16,939 nucleotides of DNA, from contig JAJXUC010000080.1 in NCBI GenBank assembly GCA_021783435.1, positions 1 to 16,939 of the forward strand, read 5' to 3'. Under the pieces are notes generated by a model. It was not told where the DNA came from, did no database searches, and saw only the letters and a list, made by a program, of their open reading frames with translations. This document shows positions 12,135 through 16,939 of this stretch, in pieces (within the stretch, counting starts at the first letter, position 1; every line of letters starts with the position of its first letter). The DNA is from Pseudomonadota bacterium (GTDB taxonomy: Bacteria; Pseudomonadota; Gammaproteobacteria; Burkholderiales; Burkholderiaceae). Made by a program: the position numbers and the translations under genes.

Positions 12135-12713
12135 TCACTCGGTATGAGCGCTCATGCCCATTCGCTGTTCGCCCATCATGCTCAGGCGCTGATTGGCGAT
12201 GGTCCTTTGCTCGGGGCTCAGCGCGGTGTAGAGGTGCTTCAAGGCCTTGGTCATGGCCTCCATGCCGCTCAGGCGTTGCTGCAAGAACTGCGTGCGTGCC
12301 TGCATGCGATCGGGTGCGGTTGCGTTCGTGTCCGCGCCCTGCAGCTTGCCGCGCATGGTTTGCATGGCCCCGGCTTGTTGCTTCGCCTGGGTGGCGAAGG
12401 CTTGCCAGGCGGGTTCCTGCGCGGCGGTGATGTGCAGCGCGGCCTTGGTATCGGCCAGATGGCGGTCCACCATCGCCGCGGAATCACCCCCATGCATCAT
12501 GCCTTCGGCCATGCCGCGCTGACGCATGTCGCCCTCACCCATCATGCCCCCACCCATCATGCCTCCACCCATCATGGACCCCGACTCCATGCCGGCGGCG
12601 CTGCCCGACATGCGATATGCGCCCATGCCGCCGGATTGCGCAAAGGCCGTGCCGATGGCGGCGGCGGACAAGACGGCGGCGATGCCGACGATGACTTTCT
12701 GATTGCGTTTCAT
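12135..12713 (-). CDS. Met-rich Spy/CpxP-like periplasmic protein (LTxxQ family)
   Basis: This is a 192-aa exported protein. Its signal peptide (MKRNQK, then a hydrophobic core about 7-22) is likely cut after AFA at 25. A methionine-rich linker follows (about 30-73, with 13 Met including three MMGGG/MMGEG-like units and an MMH). The rest is helical, with two LTxxQ-type motifs (ITAAQ at 95-99 and LSPEQ at 165-169), the signature of Spy/CpxP chaperones and related metal-stress proteins such as CnrX/ZraP. Met clusters of this kind bind Cu(I) or Ag(I) in other periplasmic proteins; here that is inference. The start at 12713 has AGGAG seven bases upstream. The gene is divergent from an OmpR/EnvZ-type two-component system whose kinase also has a Met-rich periplasmic loop, and it is probably a target of that system. 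Confidence 0.85.
   Translation of the reverse strand: MKRNQKVIVGIAAVLSAAAIGTAFAQSGGMGAYRMSGSAAGMESGSMMGGGMMGGGMMGEGDMRQRGMAEGMMHGGDSAAMVDRHLADTKAALHITAAQEPAWQAFATQAKQQAGAMQTMRGKLQGADTNATAPDRMQARTQFLQQRLSGMEAMTKALKHLYTALSPEQRTIANQRLSMMGEQRMGMSAHTE
12536..12580. repeat. Three 15-bp tandem repeats coding the Met-rich linker
   Basis: Three copies of a unit beginning CACCCATCATG follow one another without gaps (12536, 12551, 12566). On the coding strand they give the MMGGG-like Met pairs of the Spy-like protein. The unit length is a multiple of three, so copy number can change without breaking the frame. Confidence 0.75.
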
Positions 12714-12813
12714 GGTGCTGCTCCTGTCTGAATTGGGCGAATGGTCCGTGGGACGATCCCGCCGGGCCCGATGGAAGGAAGTCCTTCGCAACGGTTCCCA
12801 TTGCAGCCCCGGC

Positions 12814-12833
12814 ATGTAAGCGCGCCATGTCAA
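12814..12833 (-). promoter_or_regulatory. Regulatory box facing the Spy-like gene
   Basis: Read on the minus strand this is TTGACATGGCGCGCTTACAT: two TKACAT half-sites in tandem, about 100 bases upstream of the Spy-like start. OmpR-family regulators bind tandem half-sites of this type. An almost identical box faces the opposite gene 40 bases away, which supports a shared regulator. TTGACA could also act as a -35, but no good -10 follows. Confidence 0.45.
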
Positions 12834-12873
12834 CGAAGCCCTTTTTTGTATCGCACTGCGCGCAATCCTGGCG

Positions 12874-12892
12874 TTGACATGCTGCGTTACAT
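12874..12892 (+). promoter_or_regulatory. Regulatory box facing the two-component operon
   Basis: On the plus strand this reads TTGACATGCTGCGTTACAT, matching the divergent box in all but three bases and one gap. It ends 42 bases before the response-regulator start, a suitable place for autoregulation. The TTGACA may double as a -35 element. The region downstream (ATTGTTTTTTCC) is AT-rich, but no clear -10 was assigned. Confidence 0.5.
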
Positions 12893-12934
12893 TGTTTTTT
12901 CCTGAGCACCCGGCCCGCCGGCCAAAATCGGCGC

Positions 12935-13657
12935 ATGGAAACCTCCGACCATATCCTGATCGTCGACGACGACGCCGAGATTCGCCACCTGCTGAGCGCT
13001 TATCTGCAGAAGAACGGCTTGCGCGTGACGGCTGTTGGCGACGGCAAGGCCATGGAACGCGCGCTGCTGGCCTCCGGCGTCGACCTAATCGTGCTCGACC
13101 TGATGCTGCCTGGCGACGACGGCCTGACCCTGTGCCGCAAGCTGCGCGCCAAGTCCGACATCCCCATCCTCATGCTGACGGCACGCGGCGAGGAAACCGA
13201 TCGCATCGTCGGCCTGGAAATGGGCGCCGACGACTATCTGCCCAAGCCCTTCAGCGCGCGCGAGTTGCTGGCGCGCATCAAGGTCATCCTGCGTCGCGCC
13301 CGCAGCCTGCCGCGCAATCTTCAGCCGGAAGAGGCGCGCCAGGTGCGCTTCGCCGGCTGGACCCTCGACACCGCGCATCGCCACCTGGTTTCGCCCGCCG
13401 GCGTGGTGGTCGCGCTGAGCGGCGCCGAGTACCGGCTGCTGCGGGTTTTTCTGAGCCATCCGAACCGGGTGCTCAACCGCGACCAGTTGGTCGATCTGAC
13501 GCAGGGCCGCGAGGCCGACCCGCTCGATCGCAGCATCGACGTGCAGGTCAGCCGATTGCGCCAGCGCCTGGGCGACGACCCGCGCGACCCCGCCCTGATC
13601 AAGACCGTGCGCGGCATCGGCTATGTCCTGTCGGCCCCGGTCGAGGCAATGGCCTGA
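12935..13657 (+). CDS. OmpR-type response regulator
   Basis: This is a 240-aa DNA-binding response regulator, close to the OmpR branch. The receiver domain (about 5-120) has the acidic pocket at Asp11/Asp12, phosphoacceptor Asp55 in LIVLDLMLPGDDGL, the switch Thr82 in LMLTARGEE, and Lys104 in DYLPKPFSARELL. The winged helix (about 140-235) contains LSGAEYRLLRVFL, the recognition helix RSIDVQVSRLRQRL and the wing IKTVRGIGYVLS. No clear Shine-Dalgarno precedes the ATG at 12935, but the receiver starts directly after it. Its stop codon overlaps the start of the kinase gene (TGATG), so the two are translationally coupled. The divergent Met-rich Spy-like gene and the two mirrored boxes upstream suggest that it controls that gene and itself. 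Confidence 0.95.
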   Translation: METSDHILIVDDDAEIRHLLSAYLQKNGLRVTAVGDGKAMERALLASGVDLIVLDLMLPGDDGLTLCRKLRAKSDIPILMLTARGEETDRIVGLEMGADDYLPKPFSARELLARIKVILRRARSLPRNLQPEEARQVRFAGWTLDTAHRHLVSPAGVVVALSGAEYRLLRVFLSHPNRVLNRDQLVDLTQGREADPLDRSIDVQVSRLRQRLGDDPRDPALIKTVRGIGYVLSAPVEAMA

Positions 13658-15102
13658 TGCGCCTGCTGCCGGCCTCGCTGTTCGGGCGGATGATGCTGAT
13701 CCTGTTCAGCGGCCTGGTGCTCGCCCAGATCCTGAGCGCCTCGATCAATTTCGCCGAGCGCGATCGCCTGCTGTTGCGCAGCAGCGGCATGCAGTCGGCG
13801 CAGCGCATCGCCGACATCGTCAAGCTGCTCGATTCCCTCGACCCTGCCGAGCAGCAGCGCATCGTCACCATCCTCAGCGTGCCGCCGCAGGTGGTGAGGC
13901 TGGAGGCAGCGCCGCGTGCCGCGGCGCTGGACAACCCCCATGCCGCCATGTTCTCGGCCGCGCTGCATGCCGCGCTGGGTGATGCGCGGCCGCTGCGGGT
14001 CTCCGTCCTGCAGGCCGCGCCGGGCGCCAGGCCATCCGGGCTCGAGTCCGGCCGCCAGGACATGATGGGTGGACATGGGGGCATGGCAGCGGCCATGTCG
14101 GCCGCGATGCCGGGCATGTCGGCTATGCCGGCGATGAGATCCGGCATGGCATCGGGTCTGATGTTCCTGACCCAGGTGCAACTGCGCGACGGCCGCTGGG
14201 TCGCTTTCGACACCCAGTTGCCGCAAGGCCCGGCCAGCACGCCGTGGCGACTGCTGCTGACCCTGCTGGTGCTGCTGCTGACGGTGCTCGTCCTGTCGTA
14301 TGCGGCGGTGCGCTGGATGACCCGGCCGCTGGCGGTCCTGGCCTGCGCCGCCGATGCCCTGGGCAAGGACATCAACCGGCCGCCGCTGCCCGAGACCGGG
14401 CCGACCGAGGTGAGGCGCGCCGCGCATGCGTTCAACATCATGCAGTCCAGCCTGGTGCGTTTCATTCAGGACCGCACCCGCATTTTCGCCGCCATGTCGC
14501 ACGACCTGAAAACGCCCATCACCCGCATGCGCCTGCGCACCGAACTGCTGGAAGACGCCGATTTGCGCCAGCGCTTCGACAAGGATTTGCGCGAGATGGA
14601 ACTGATGGTGACGCACACGCTGGATTTCATGCGCGGGCTTGAGCAGCCCCAAGTCGCCCGGCCGATCGACATCACGGCGCTGCTCGAAAGCCTGCAGGCG
14701 GACAATCAGGACATGCAGCGCGAAGTCCTCATCGAAGGCCGCGCACTGGTCCCCTATGTCGGCGACCCCGAACGGCTCAAACGTTGTGTCTCCAACCTGA
14801 TCGACAACGCCATTCTCTACGGCAGGCAAGCGCGCATCATCGTCGAAGACAGTCCCGCAGCCCTCACCCTTCGCATCCGGGACCAGGGGCCCGGCATCGC
14901 GCCAGACGAACTCGACAAGGTGTTCGAGCCGTTCTACCGGCTCGAAGCATCACGCAGCCGCGAGACCGGCGGCACCGGCCTCGGCCTCGGCATCGCCCGC
15001 AACATCGCGCGCGCGGCCGGTGGCGATGTGACCTTGCGCAACCACCCGGATGGCGGCCTGGAGGCCACCTTGCACCTGCCGCGCAAGCCCGGTTTTTCAT
15101 GA
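13657..15102 (+). CDS. EnvZ-type sensor histidine kinase with a Met-rich periplasmic loop
   Basis: This is a 481-aa membrane sensor kinase. TM1 spans about residues 10-30 and TM2 about 197-219, followed by a HAMP region (220-270). The phosphoacceptor His282 lies in AAMSHDLKTPITRMRLRTE, an EnvZ-like H-box. The ATPase domain has the N-box (CVSNLIDNAILYG, 377-389), G1 (DQGPGIAP) and G2 (GGTGLGLGIA). The periplasmic part (31-196) contains a stretch at 135-169 with ten Met and one His in 35 residues (DMMGGHGGM onward), a composition typical of Cu(I)/Ag(I)-binding segments. It overlaps the response-regulator stop by one base. I infer that it senses a thiophilic metal or an envelope condition reported by the Met-rich Spy-like protein encoded divergently. 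The signal is not proven. The frame stays open upstream of 13657, but that part is only a shadow of the regulator gene. Confidence 0.94.
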   Translation: MRLLPASLFGRMMLILFSGLVLAQILSASINFAERDRLLLRSSGMQSAQRIADIVKLLDSLDPAEQQRIVTILSVPPQVVRLEAAPRAAALDNPHAAMFSAALHAALGDARPLRVSVLQAAPGARPSGLESGRQDMMGGHGGMAAAMSAAMPGMSAMPAMRSGMASGLMFLTQVQLRDGRWVAFDTQLPQGPASTPWRLLLTLLVLLLTVLVLSYAAVRWMTRPLAVLACAADALGKDINRPPLPETGPTEVRRAAHAFNIMQSSLVRFIQDRTRIFAAMSHDLKTPITRMRLRTELLEDADLRQRFDKDLREMELMVTHTLDFMRGLEQPQVARPIDITALLESLQADNQDMQREVLIEGRALVPYVGDPERLKRCVSNLIDNAILYGRQARIIVEDSPAALTLRIRDQGPGIAPDELDKVFEPFYRLEASRSRETGGTGLGLGIARNIARAAGGDVTLRNHPDGGLEATLHLPRKPGFS

Positions 15103-15209: not shown

Positions 15210-15662
15210 TCACCCCCGTTGGCCCTGCACTGCAGGAGGTTCCGCGTGGCATTCGCAGGGCTCGCCAGCCGCAGCCTGCTGCAGGTTCTGCAGGATGCCG
15301 CATGCGCTCGCTGTCTGATTGACCTGGCAGGTTTCGCGTAGCGCGTGCAACTGCTGCTCCAGCAGGCGCAGCGATTCGACCTGACGGTGGATGCGCGCGA
15401 TCTGCCGGTCGATCAACTGGTTGATGGCGTCGCACGCCGATTCAGGATGCTGCTGAAAGCTGCGCAACACGCGCACGTCCGGCAATCCCATGCCCAGCGA
15501 GCGGCAGTGGCGAATGAAGTTGAGCTGCACCAGGTGGTCGCTGCTGTAGTTGCGATAGCCGTTGCCCTCGCGGGCGGGCGCGTCCAGCAAGCCCTCGCGT
15601 TCGTAAAAACGCACCGTCTCCACGTCGCAGTGGCCGCGCTGCGCCAATTCCCCGATTCGCAT
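15210..15662 (-). CDS. MerR-family Cd/Pb/Zn-responsive regulator (CadR/PbrR type)
   Basis: This is a 150-aa MerR regulator. The N-terminal winged helix (MRIGELAQRGHCDVETVRFYE, then GYRNYSSDHLVQLNFIRHCR) is followed by a long dimerisation helix (about 80-112). The metal-binding cysteines known from CadR and PbrR are in register: Cys77 (ESACDAIN), Cys112 (RETCQV) and Cys121 (SACGILQ). An extra CECH (136-139) near the C-terminus could be a second metal site, as in CadR variants. A purine-rich GAGGGG lies upstream of the ATG. It is divergent from a P-type ATPase across a MerR-type promoter, so it should activate that pump when metal binds and repress it otherwise. Whether it prefers Cd, Pb or Zn cannot be read with certainty. 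It converges on the kinase gene with 107 bases between, in which I see no gene. Confidence 0.94.
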   Translation of the reverse strand: MRIGELAQRGHCDVETVRFYEREGLLDAPAREGNGYRNYSSDHLVQLNFIRHCRSLGMGLPDVRVLRSFQQHPESACDAINQLIDRQIARIHRQVESLRLLEQQLHALRETCQVNQTASACGILQNLQQAAAGEPCECHAEPPAVQGQRG

Positions 15663-15750: not shown

Positions 15751-16939
15751 ATGAGCCAGCACGACCCCACCGGCACAGCGTTACGCCTGCCTGTCCAGGC
15801 GCAAGACCATGGGCCCGCCTGTGACCACGATCATGCGCACGATCATGGCCAACGAGACGACCCTGATTCGCGCGTCCATGCCCGCGCGGCGGCCGATGCC
15901 TGCTGCGCTGCGACGACACGGGTCGACGGCCTGACGGGGGTTTGCATAACCAATCCGGCACCCGACGGGACCAGCCGGGTGCGCTACCGTATCGACAAAA
16001 TGGACTGCCCCACCGAGGAGCGCCTGATCCGCAACAAACTGGAGGCCATGCCCGGGGTGGTCCAACTCGACTTCAACCTGCTGCAACGGGAACTCACGGT
16101 GTATCACCGTCTGGAGCGGCCGCAGGAGATTGCCGCGGTGCTGAACAAGCTGGACATGGCACCCAATTTGCTGGAAGCCAATGCGCCGGTGTCTGTGCTT
16201 CCCCCGGCCCTGAGCCGACGGCAAAAAGGTCTGCTCGCCGTGGCTGGCGTCGCAGCCGTCGCAGCCGAGGTCATCGCCTGGTCGAGCGGGCGGGAGACCT
16301 CGTGGATGGTCATGGCGCTTGCCGCCGTGTCCATCCTCAGCGCCGGCCTGCCGACCCTCAAAAAGGGCTGGGTCGCGCTCAGAAACCTGACCCTCAACAT
16401 CCACTTCCTGATGTCCATCGCGGTGGCCGGGGCCGTGGCGCTGGGCAAGTGGCCGGAGGCGGCGATGGTGGTGTTCCTGTTCGCCGTGGCCGAGGCGATC
16501 GAGGCGCTGTCGCTGGAGCGTGCCAGGAACGCGATCAAGGCGCTCACGGCCATCGCGCCGGAAACCGCCGAGGTCAAGGCCGGCGAAACCTGGCAGGCCA
16601 AGCCGGTGGCCGAGGTGGCCGTCGGCAGCCGCATCCGGGTGCGCACCGGCGCGCGGGTGCCGTTGGACGCACGCGTCGACTCCGGCCGCGCGGCGCTGAA
16701 CCAGGCGCCGATCACCGGCGAAAGCCTGCCTGTGGACAAGCAGGCGGGCGACTTGCTGTATGCCGGCAGTATCGTGGCCGATGGCGTGGTGGAAGCCACC
16801 GTCACGGCCTCGGCCAGTGACAGCACCTTGGCCCGCATCGCCCTGGCCATCCAGAGCGCGCAGTCCCAGCGCGCGCCGACCCAGCGTTTCGTCGACCAAT
16901 TCGCGCGGTACTACACCCCCGCGGTGGTCGTCTTCGCCA
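15751..16939 (+). CDS. P1B-type heavy-metal-exporting ATPase (N-terminal 396 residues, cut by window edge)
   Basis: This is an inner-membrane pump of the Cd/Pb/Zn type (ZntA/CadA/PbrA). The N-terminus begins with a His/Asp/Cys cluster (CDHDHAHDH, about 24-32, then CC at 51-52). It continues with a metal-binding HMA domain (about 76-145) holding the family motif MDCPTEE (84-90, Cys86) in place of the usual GMTCxxC. Four membrane segments follow between about 160 and 255. The actuator domain has TGES at 322-325. The frame is open to the last base, so the CPC metal site, the DKTGT phosphorylation site and the nucleotide-binding domain lie beyond the window. The ATG at 15751 has a weak GAG upstream, but it is placed well after the MerR promoter. 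It exports metal ions from the cytoplasm at the cost of ATP. PbrA, CadA and ZntA cannot be separated here. Confidence 0.94.
   Translation, partial: MSQHDPTGTALRLPVQAQDHGPACDHDHAHDHGQRDDPDSRVHARAAADACCAATTRVDGLTGVCITNPAPDGTSRVRYRIDKMDCPTEERLIRNKLEAMPGVVQLDFNLLQRELTVYHRLERPQEIAAVLNKLDMAPNLLEANAPVSVLPPALSRRQKGLLAVAGVAAVAAEVIAWSSGRETSWMVMALAAVSILSAGLPTLKKGWVALRNLTLNIHFLMSIAVAGAVALGKWPEAAMVVFLFAVAEAIEALSLERARNAIKALTAIAPETAEVKAGETWQAKPVAEVAVGSRIRVRTGARVPLDARVDSGRAALNQAPITGESLPVDKQAGDLLYAGSIVADGVVEATVTASASDSTLARIALAIQSAQSQRAPTQRFVDQFARYYTPAVVVFA

Follow-up and report, generated by a model that had tools for sequence, protein, structure and literature searches.

Matched methionine-rich segments in a recurrent sensor kinase and LTXXQ protein unit of Burkholderiales

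What an accessory protein of the CpxP or ZraP type shares with its sensor is hard to discern from a single pair. This question is raised by a stretch of 16,939 nucleotides (contig JAJXUC010000080.1, assembly GCA_021783435.1, Burkholderiaceae; hereafter the window), which is placed in or near Thiomonas by named homologues and carries an operon of an OmpR-class response regulator and an EnvZ-class sensor histidine kinase, with the gene of an exported LTXXQ (Spy/CpxP-type) protein divergent from it (Table 1). A first-pass annotation of the window had proposed that the kinase and the LTXXQ protein, both of which carry methionine (Met)-rich segments, read or buffer the same ligand. The analyses presented here partly support that proposal. 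They describe a natural family of such pairs in which the sensor loop of the kinase and the N-terminal arm of the LTXXQ protein tend to change together, which makes the shared-ligand question testable, and they assign to an uncharacterised recurrent envelope circuit of Burkholderiales a specific promoter box and a regulon that is expected to be small.

The Met counts on which the proposal rested were confirmed. The segment at 14062-14163, which translates in the kinase frame to MMGGHGGMAAAMSAAMPGMSAMPAMRSGMASGLM, holds 10 Met and one histidine (His), while the LTXXQ protein has 13 Met among the 44 residues from residue 30, directly past a signal peptide of approximately residues 1-25 (by eye). 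A density of 10 Met within any 35 residues was reached by 2 of 5000 shuffles of the kinase sequence. For the LTXXQ protein, whose mature chain is itself rich in Met, 119 of 5000 shuffles of that chain equalled the observed density, and the binomial tail for its arm against a 2.5% Met background was 4e-11. According to structure prediction and the alignment of 64 kinases, the sensor domain is a small alpha/beta domain between two long membrane helices. The window loop is not a repeat, and six of its nine Met gaps are of 3 or 4 residues; across the family, directly adjacent Met and Met spacings of 3-5 residues were more frequent in the loops than in shuffles, and gap 2 was depleted. In the arms, an excess over shuffles was seen for adjacent Met and for gaps of 4, 5 and 8, again with gap 2 depleted; the arms contain GMMGG-type repeats of variable number. 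In the prediction made with 27 LTXXQ sequences, residues 1-74 of the LTXXQ protein were disordered (predicted local distance difference test, pLDDT, below 50) and residues 78-182 helical, mostly with high pLDDT.

Further analyses defined the three genes. The LTXXQ protein scored 58.9 bits against PF07813, above the curated cut-off of 24.3, and its start is common to close homologues. The likely starts of the LTXXQ gene (ATG at 12713) and of the kinase gene (ATG at 13657) differ from those of the longest open reading frames (ORFs), and the regulator stop and the kinase start overlap by one base (TGATG). The probable phospho-acceptor of the regulator, as read from the sequence, is D55, and the kinase carries H282 in MSHDLKTPITRMR, which is invariant across the 64-sequence alignment. 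The top NCBIfam models were OmpR for the regulator (264.3 bits, below the cut-off of 331) and EnvZ for the kinase (197.8 bits, below the cut-off of 415). The kinase was also under the cut-offs of the Cu(+)/Ag(+) sensor kinase models (NF007345, 74.6 vs 423 bits; TIGR01386, 104.2 vs 292.55 bits).

The arrangement recurs in relatives. When named genomes were scanned with the N-terminus of the kinase, 44 loci were obtained, and in 28 of them a strong LTXXQ gene (E < 1e-20) was divergent from the regulator gene and directly beside it. In 399 Burkholderiales genomes drawn, the kinase family was found in 44, at 51 places, of which 50 were added to the set (G001 was already included). Seven loci were left out of the counts: three duplicates (L075, L077 and L086, of L046, L070 and L068, respectively), two at a contig edge (L041, L083) and two in which the kinase was not found (L114, L119). 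The remaining 87 informative loci comprised 41 with a divergent LTXXQ gene, 11 with a TPEER-type partner and 35 with another or no recognised partner, both partner classes being defined by home-made profiles (the TPEER profile was seeded with nine pieces, of which L057 and L087 were badly trimmed) and weak LTXXQ-like matches being scored as LTXXQ in L051 and L054 and as no partner in L078. The co-occurrence of Met-rich-loop kinases with LTXXQ proteins, which the first-pass annotation had named as a check of its proposal, was observed in relatives. An LTXXQ or TPEER partner was present at 41 of the 49 loci whose loop has at least two Met, compared to 11 of the 38 with 0-1 Met (Fisher 2.5e-7, a value that ignores the relatedness of the loci). 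Twenty other OmpR/EnvZ-type loci from family-bearing genomes (L125-L144) served as control, 19 of them showing a kinase and a regulator; they contained one strong LTXXQ gene, which adjoins a close paralogue of the window-type kinase, and two further weak LTXXQ matches (1e-4 and 8e-4).

The TPEER-type partner is a small exported Met/His-rich protein with the motif TPEERQQIA...EMQKRA.EKGITLP, and it takes the LTXXQ position in L057, L060, L062, L064, L066, L071, L072 and L079; the five members scanned (L062, L064, L066, L071, L072) matched no Pfam family. Two loci have an EF-hand-like partner divergent from the regulator gene (L081:1940-2659 and L082:1915-2634) and a kinase loop with one Met. 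The L082 partner, which was the one of this pair that was scanned, matched PF13202 (E 1.3e-14), and an operon-facing box is present. These EF-hand-like proteins are not Met-poor, with 14 Met past the signal peptide, and misfit a simple Met match. A further family of exported proteins, Met-rich at the N-terminus and sharing a conserved LPDGI.TVTES region, was found at L061:4374-5054, L066:3887-4564, L071:2892-3524 and L072:3847-4707, and no Pfam match was obtained for the two members scanned (L061, L066).

The Met content of the sensor loop tends to follow that of the LTXXQ arm. In 29 pairs (the 28 named loci and the window), the two Met densities were correlated with a rho of 0.78, and phylogenetic contrasts gave r 0.57 (p 0.0005). 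When Met-poor-loop relatives were included (40 pairs, i.e., 39 loci and the window, with L051 and L054 excluded), rho was 0.61 and the contrasts gave r 0.43 (p 0.0026), all p values of these contrasts being one-sided and uncorrected for the 12 residues tested. In the contrasts with 40 pairs, His was also matched between loop and arm (r 0.38, p 0.007), Asp was weakly matched (r 0.31, p 0.03) and Ser was borderline (r 0.26, p 0.05), while no significant match was found for Pro, Ala, Gln, Arg, Glu, Tyr and Asn. The kinase-domain Met did not follow the arm (r 0.06), nor did the LTXXQ-core Met follow the loop (r 0.10). Moreover, median arm Met was 5 in the cognate proteins and 1 in the non-cognate LTXXQ paralogues that these genomes also encode (p 0.002; 15 genomes, 21 paralogues). 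The paralogues came from 37 other LTXXQ loci, of which 7 had no core and 30 were measured, 9 of these being dropped for an unresolved arm; the use of all 30 gave p 3e-5. This shared variation suggests that one chemical signal is handled by sensor and partner alike, possibly ions of copper or silver.

The two putative regulator boxes of the window stand head-to-head in the 221-bp region between the LTXXQ gene and the operon, and the plan aTGTAAgcgcngnATGTCA ... TTTTGTAnCGCA ... tTGacAcacTGcGtTACa, with an LTXXQ-facing box and its mirror image towards the operon, is shared by 30 of 40 intergenic regions, namely those of the Met-bearing loops and of L037; several Met-poor relatives have GTAAA-like repeats in place of the box. 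A regular expression for the LTXXQ-facing box matched 26 of the 40 regions (0.12 expected), 20 with TGACA-type and 6 with TTACA-type boxes, the latter from Met-poor relatives. The operon-facing box was found in 11 of 40 regions (0.10 expected) and both directions in 10 (0.0 expected), the shuffles preserving base content and not dinucleotides. A strict box pattern had exactly two matches in each of four Thiomonas-group genomes, both at the unit locus, and ten matches in nine of 13 further genomes, all at the unit locus by contig and position, with four genomes without any. In total, 18 of 18 matches over 17 genomes were at the unit locus, with none for the reversed-pattern control, for a pattern that was derived from these same sites. 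A TACACTGC.(T/A)TACA-like operon-facing core was also seen upstream of most regulator genes in a set of 13 whose partners are of the TPEER, EF-hand or another type. Because of the conserved head-to-head boxes, the first-pass suggestion that the Spy-like protein is a target of the circuit is well supported: regulation of the LTXXQ gene and of the regulator-kinase operon by the regulator is very probable, and there may be few targets beyond these.

A TATAAA/TATAAG-like element, not evident in the window, was seen approximately 6-10 bases before the regulator ATG in several relatives (L036, L039, L082 and others), where it would suggest a leaderless transcript.

Taken together, we regard it as an even call that the kinase, the regulator and the LTXXQ protein form a largely self-contained feedback circuit for a Met-binding ligand. 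In such a circuit, the disordered Met/His segment of the periplasmic domain of the kinase would bind a soft ligand, with Cu(I) or Ag(I) as the likeliest candidates, and binding would tip the kinase towards phosphorylation of the OmpR-class regulator. The phosphorylated regulator would then occupy both head-to-head boxes and switch on the divergent LTXXQ gene as well as the operon that encodes the regulator itself. Once exported, the LTXXQ protein, with the same Met chemistry in its disordered arm, might buffer the ligand, dock on the kinase or do both, and when docked it would damp the kinase signal in the manner of ZraP and CpxP. Cu(I) or Ag(I) is favoured with modest confidence, since the disordered Met/His loop resembles that of CusS, a sensor in which a functionally important disordered loop in the periplasm includes M133, M135 and H145, residues named as binding Ag(I) (PMC10100754). 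LTXXQ-type genes can respond to other metals too, as in a Desulfomicrobium the strongest induction by molybdenum was that of two genes, the Spy/CpxP- and ZraP-like ones (PMC12724210). More tentatively, and in our view doubtfully, the family may follow a more general design, in which a sensor and an exported partner from its regulon share a disordered ligand chemistry, compete for the ligand and so set its free level. The divergent position would then keep an exported ligand-binding protein, with a scaffold exchangeable among the Met-arm LTXXQ protein, the TPEER-type Met/His-rich protein and an EF-hand protein (calcium-type, in one clade with Met-poor loops).

A number of results weigh against the proposed ligand circuit. 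In the 64-sequence alignment no loop Met position is conserved and density alone is kept; position-specific conservation was rejected, as no Met lies in an invariant or near-invariant column of residues 112-172. The loop holds 0-1 Met in 38 of the 87 loci, and 9 of the 30 measured LTXXQ paralogues have a kinase or regulator ORF nearby, so such neighbours are not rare. The glycine (Gly) match between loop and arm exceeds that of Met (r 0.53 vs 0.43; 40 pairs), and part of the match may thus be general low-complexity character. The Met correlation drops without Thiomonas (r 0.34, p 0.023), is not significant between loop and cognate arm in the 15-genome subset (rho 0.26, p 0.35), and has outliers in L124 (loop 0, arm 6 Met), L116 (loop 4, arm 1) and L036 (loop 6, arm 3); in L047, a non-cognate LTXXQ paralogue exceeds the cognate arm in Met. 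Relaxed box searches gave 5 two-mismatch candidate hits besides 4 perfect ones (reversed control 0) and, for the other box form, 20 three-mismatch candidate hits besides 4 perfect ones (control 11); given a pattern learned from its own sites and relaxed hits slightly above control, weaker targets may exist. The genomic context does not favour copper either: the CadR/PbrR-like and ZntA-like neighbours indicate Zn, Cd or Pb, control of an efflux pump is not evident, and no copper efflux, chaperone or cusF gene was found among the window neighbours scanned. In relatives, a metal operon by neighbourhood was unsupported, with no copper or silver family among the 25 of 171 families listed for 148 flank proteins or the 25 of 67 listed for 80 further ones, families matched once being partly outside the 25 listed. 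These scans took 148 of 154 and 80 of 84 ORFs, the remainder consisting for the most part of ORFs antisense to the kinase and of ones considered spurious.

The main rival to the metal reading, which we consider unlikely, is an oxidant circuit in which oxidation of the loop Met by hypochlorous acid (HOCl), chlorite, peroxide or copper-driven reactive oxygen species serves as the signal, with the LTXXQ arm as a Met sponge that is sacrificed to guard the envelope and the chaperone core. Met density without fixed positions suits a sponge. The N-terminal Met hotspot of Escherichia coli Spy is dispensable for function and suspected by the authors to be an oxidant sponge (PMC12503329), and the Met-rich peptide MrpX is described as a HOCl-scavenging sink (PMC8550376). 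On the other hand, the non-random Met spacing and the His covariation fit metal binding better, and MsrP/MsrQ, as known from the methionine-oxidation circuit HprSR-MsrPQ, were not among the window proteins scanned or in either list of 25 families for the flanks. The two readings may be compatible, since oxidised CusF is inactive and is repaired by MsrP (PMC9302797).

A second alternative is a metal-free, Cpx-like misfolding sensor, in which the LTXXQ chaperone would hold the kinase off until misfolded clients titrate it away, with the Met/Gly segments as flexible hydrophobic binding surfaces and the loop mimicking the arm or docking on it. The gene order agrees with it, as the LTXXQ gene diverges from the regulator-kinase operon in the same way as cpxP from cpxRA, and the CpxA cytoplasmic core ranked first among solved structures for the kinase model. 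Some Met-poor-loop members retain LTXXQ partners with Met-poor arms as well as GTAAA-like boxes resembling the CpxR site, and Gly covaries along with Met. The kinase nevertheless falls far short of the cut-off for CpxA (154 vs 486 bits) and the regulator of that for CpxR (171 vs 341 bits), the main box differs, the loop is Met-rich, and no broad regulon of proteases or folding factors is evident, as the strict box was not found elsewhere in the 17 genomes; this alternative appears improbable. Very improbable is a non-functional match, in which slippage would have expanded Gly/Met repeats in both genes within shared lineages, while the signal read by the unit would have nothing to do with Met: the variable GMMGG-type repeats of the arms, the Gly match at least as good as that of Met and the lack of conserved loop Met positions would suit it, but the arms of other LTXXQ paralogues in the same genomes are Met-poorer, the kinase-domain and LTXXQ-core Met do not follow, and the window loop has no repeat structure.

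Compared to the other known systems, the Met-ligand unit combines familiar elements in a different way. Like ZraP-ZraSR of E. coli, it has a periplasmic Spy/CpxP-type partner of a two-component pair; zinc-bound ZraP represses the ZraPSR system (PMC10848872), and ZraR has very few direct targets, given as zraP, zraSR and mgtA (PMC7657598). In contrast, ZraR is sigma54-dependent (PMC7657598) and the ligand of that system is zinc, whereas the unit has an OmpR-class regulator (PF00072, PF00486) and both of its partners bear Met-rich disordered segments. With CusS-CusR, CopS and SilS it shares Met/His residues in a disordered periplasmic loop, the disorder being predicted for the unit, but it is under the respective cut-offs and has an LTXXQ partner in place of copper efflux or cusF genes, which were absent from the neighbours scanned. 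EnvZ-OmpR provides the top curated models, but the unit is below both cut-offs and adds the Met-rich insert and the divergent LTXXQ gene. A Foldseek search with the LTXXQ model gave no match at E < 0.001; its weak top matches include Spy and the metal sensors CnrX and NccX. CnrX acts with an extracytoplasmic function sigma/anti-sigma pair and not with a kinase. A PDB sequence search with the sensor and LTXXQ profiles gave no match. Each element thus has precedent. A description of the recurrent LTXXQ unit was not found in the titles and abstract openings of the literature searched, which most subscription journals lie outside; judged by that literature, three features are new: the recurrence of an OmpR/EnvZ-class unit that has an LTXXQ partner, the covariation of its Met-rich segments, and the replacement of one partner scaffold by another.

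Table 1. Features of the kinase-LTXXQ unit and its neighbours, in window coordinates.
Feature	Position	Strand	Remarks
LTXXQ (Spy/CpxP-type) exported protein gene	12135..12713	-	192 aa; PF07813 E 9.1e-16
Helical LTXXQ core, residues 80-182	12168..12476	-	predicted helices 78-93, 97-126, 133-164, 167-177, 179-182
Met-rich predicted-disordered N-terminal arm, residues 26-79	12477..12638	-	13 Met
Putative regulator box facing LTXXQ gene, TGACATGGCGCGCTTACA	12815..12832	-	0.00 expected in shuffled window
Conserved middle element TTTTTTGTATCGCA	12842..12855	+	consensus TTTTGTAnCGCA from 30 aligned intergenic regions
Putative regulator box facing regulator-kinase operon, TGACATGCTGCGTTACA	12875..12891	+	none expected by chance
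OmpR-class response regulator gene	12935..13657	+	240 aa; PF00072 and PF00486 matches
EnvZ-class sensor histidine kinase gene	13657..15102	+	481 aa; HAMP, HisKA, HATPase_c
Predicted-disordered insert, residues 124-165	14026..14151	+	pLDDT <50; between sensor-domain strands 113-119 and 168-175
Met-rich segment of sensor loop	14062..14163	+	10 Met, 1 His in 34 residues
CadR/PbrR-like MerR regulator gene	15210-15662	-	142.0 bits, cut-off 151.45; 107 bp from kinase
ZntA-like P-type ATPase gene	15751-16939	+	HMA domain, His-rich N-terminus; divergent from MerR-type regulator

Regarding the wider surroundings, a MerR-type regulator and a P-type ATPase also occur approximately 2.9 kb from the kinase in L031 and L033. 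A plasmid search returned 12 records, every one with less than 60% identity. Within the genus of the window, a close copy of the kinase (93-96%) was found in 4 of 28 genomes and a relative of the neighbouring metallo-beta-lactamase-fold gene in 27 of 28, and the kinase unit therefore looks accessory within this genus.

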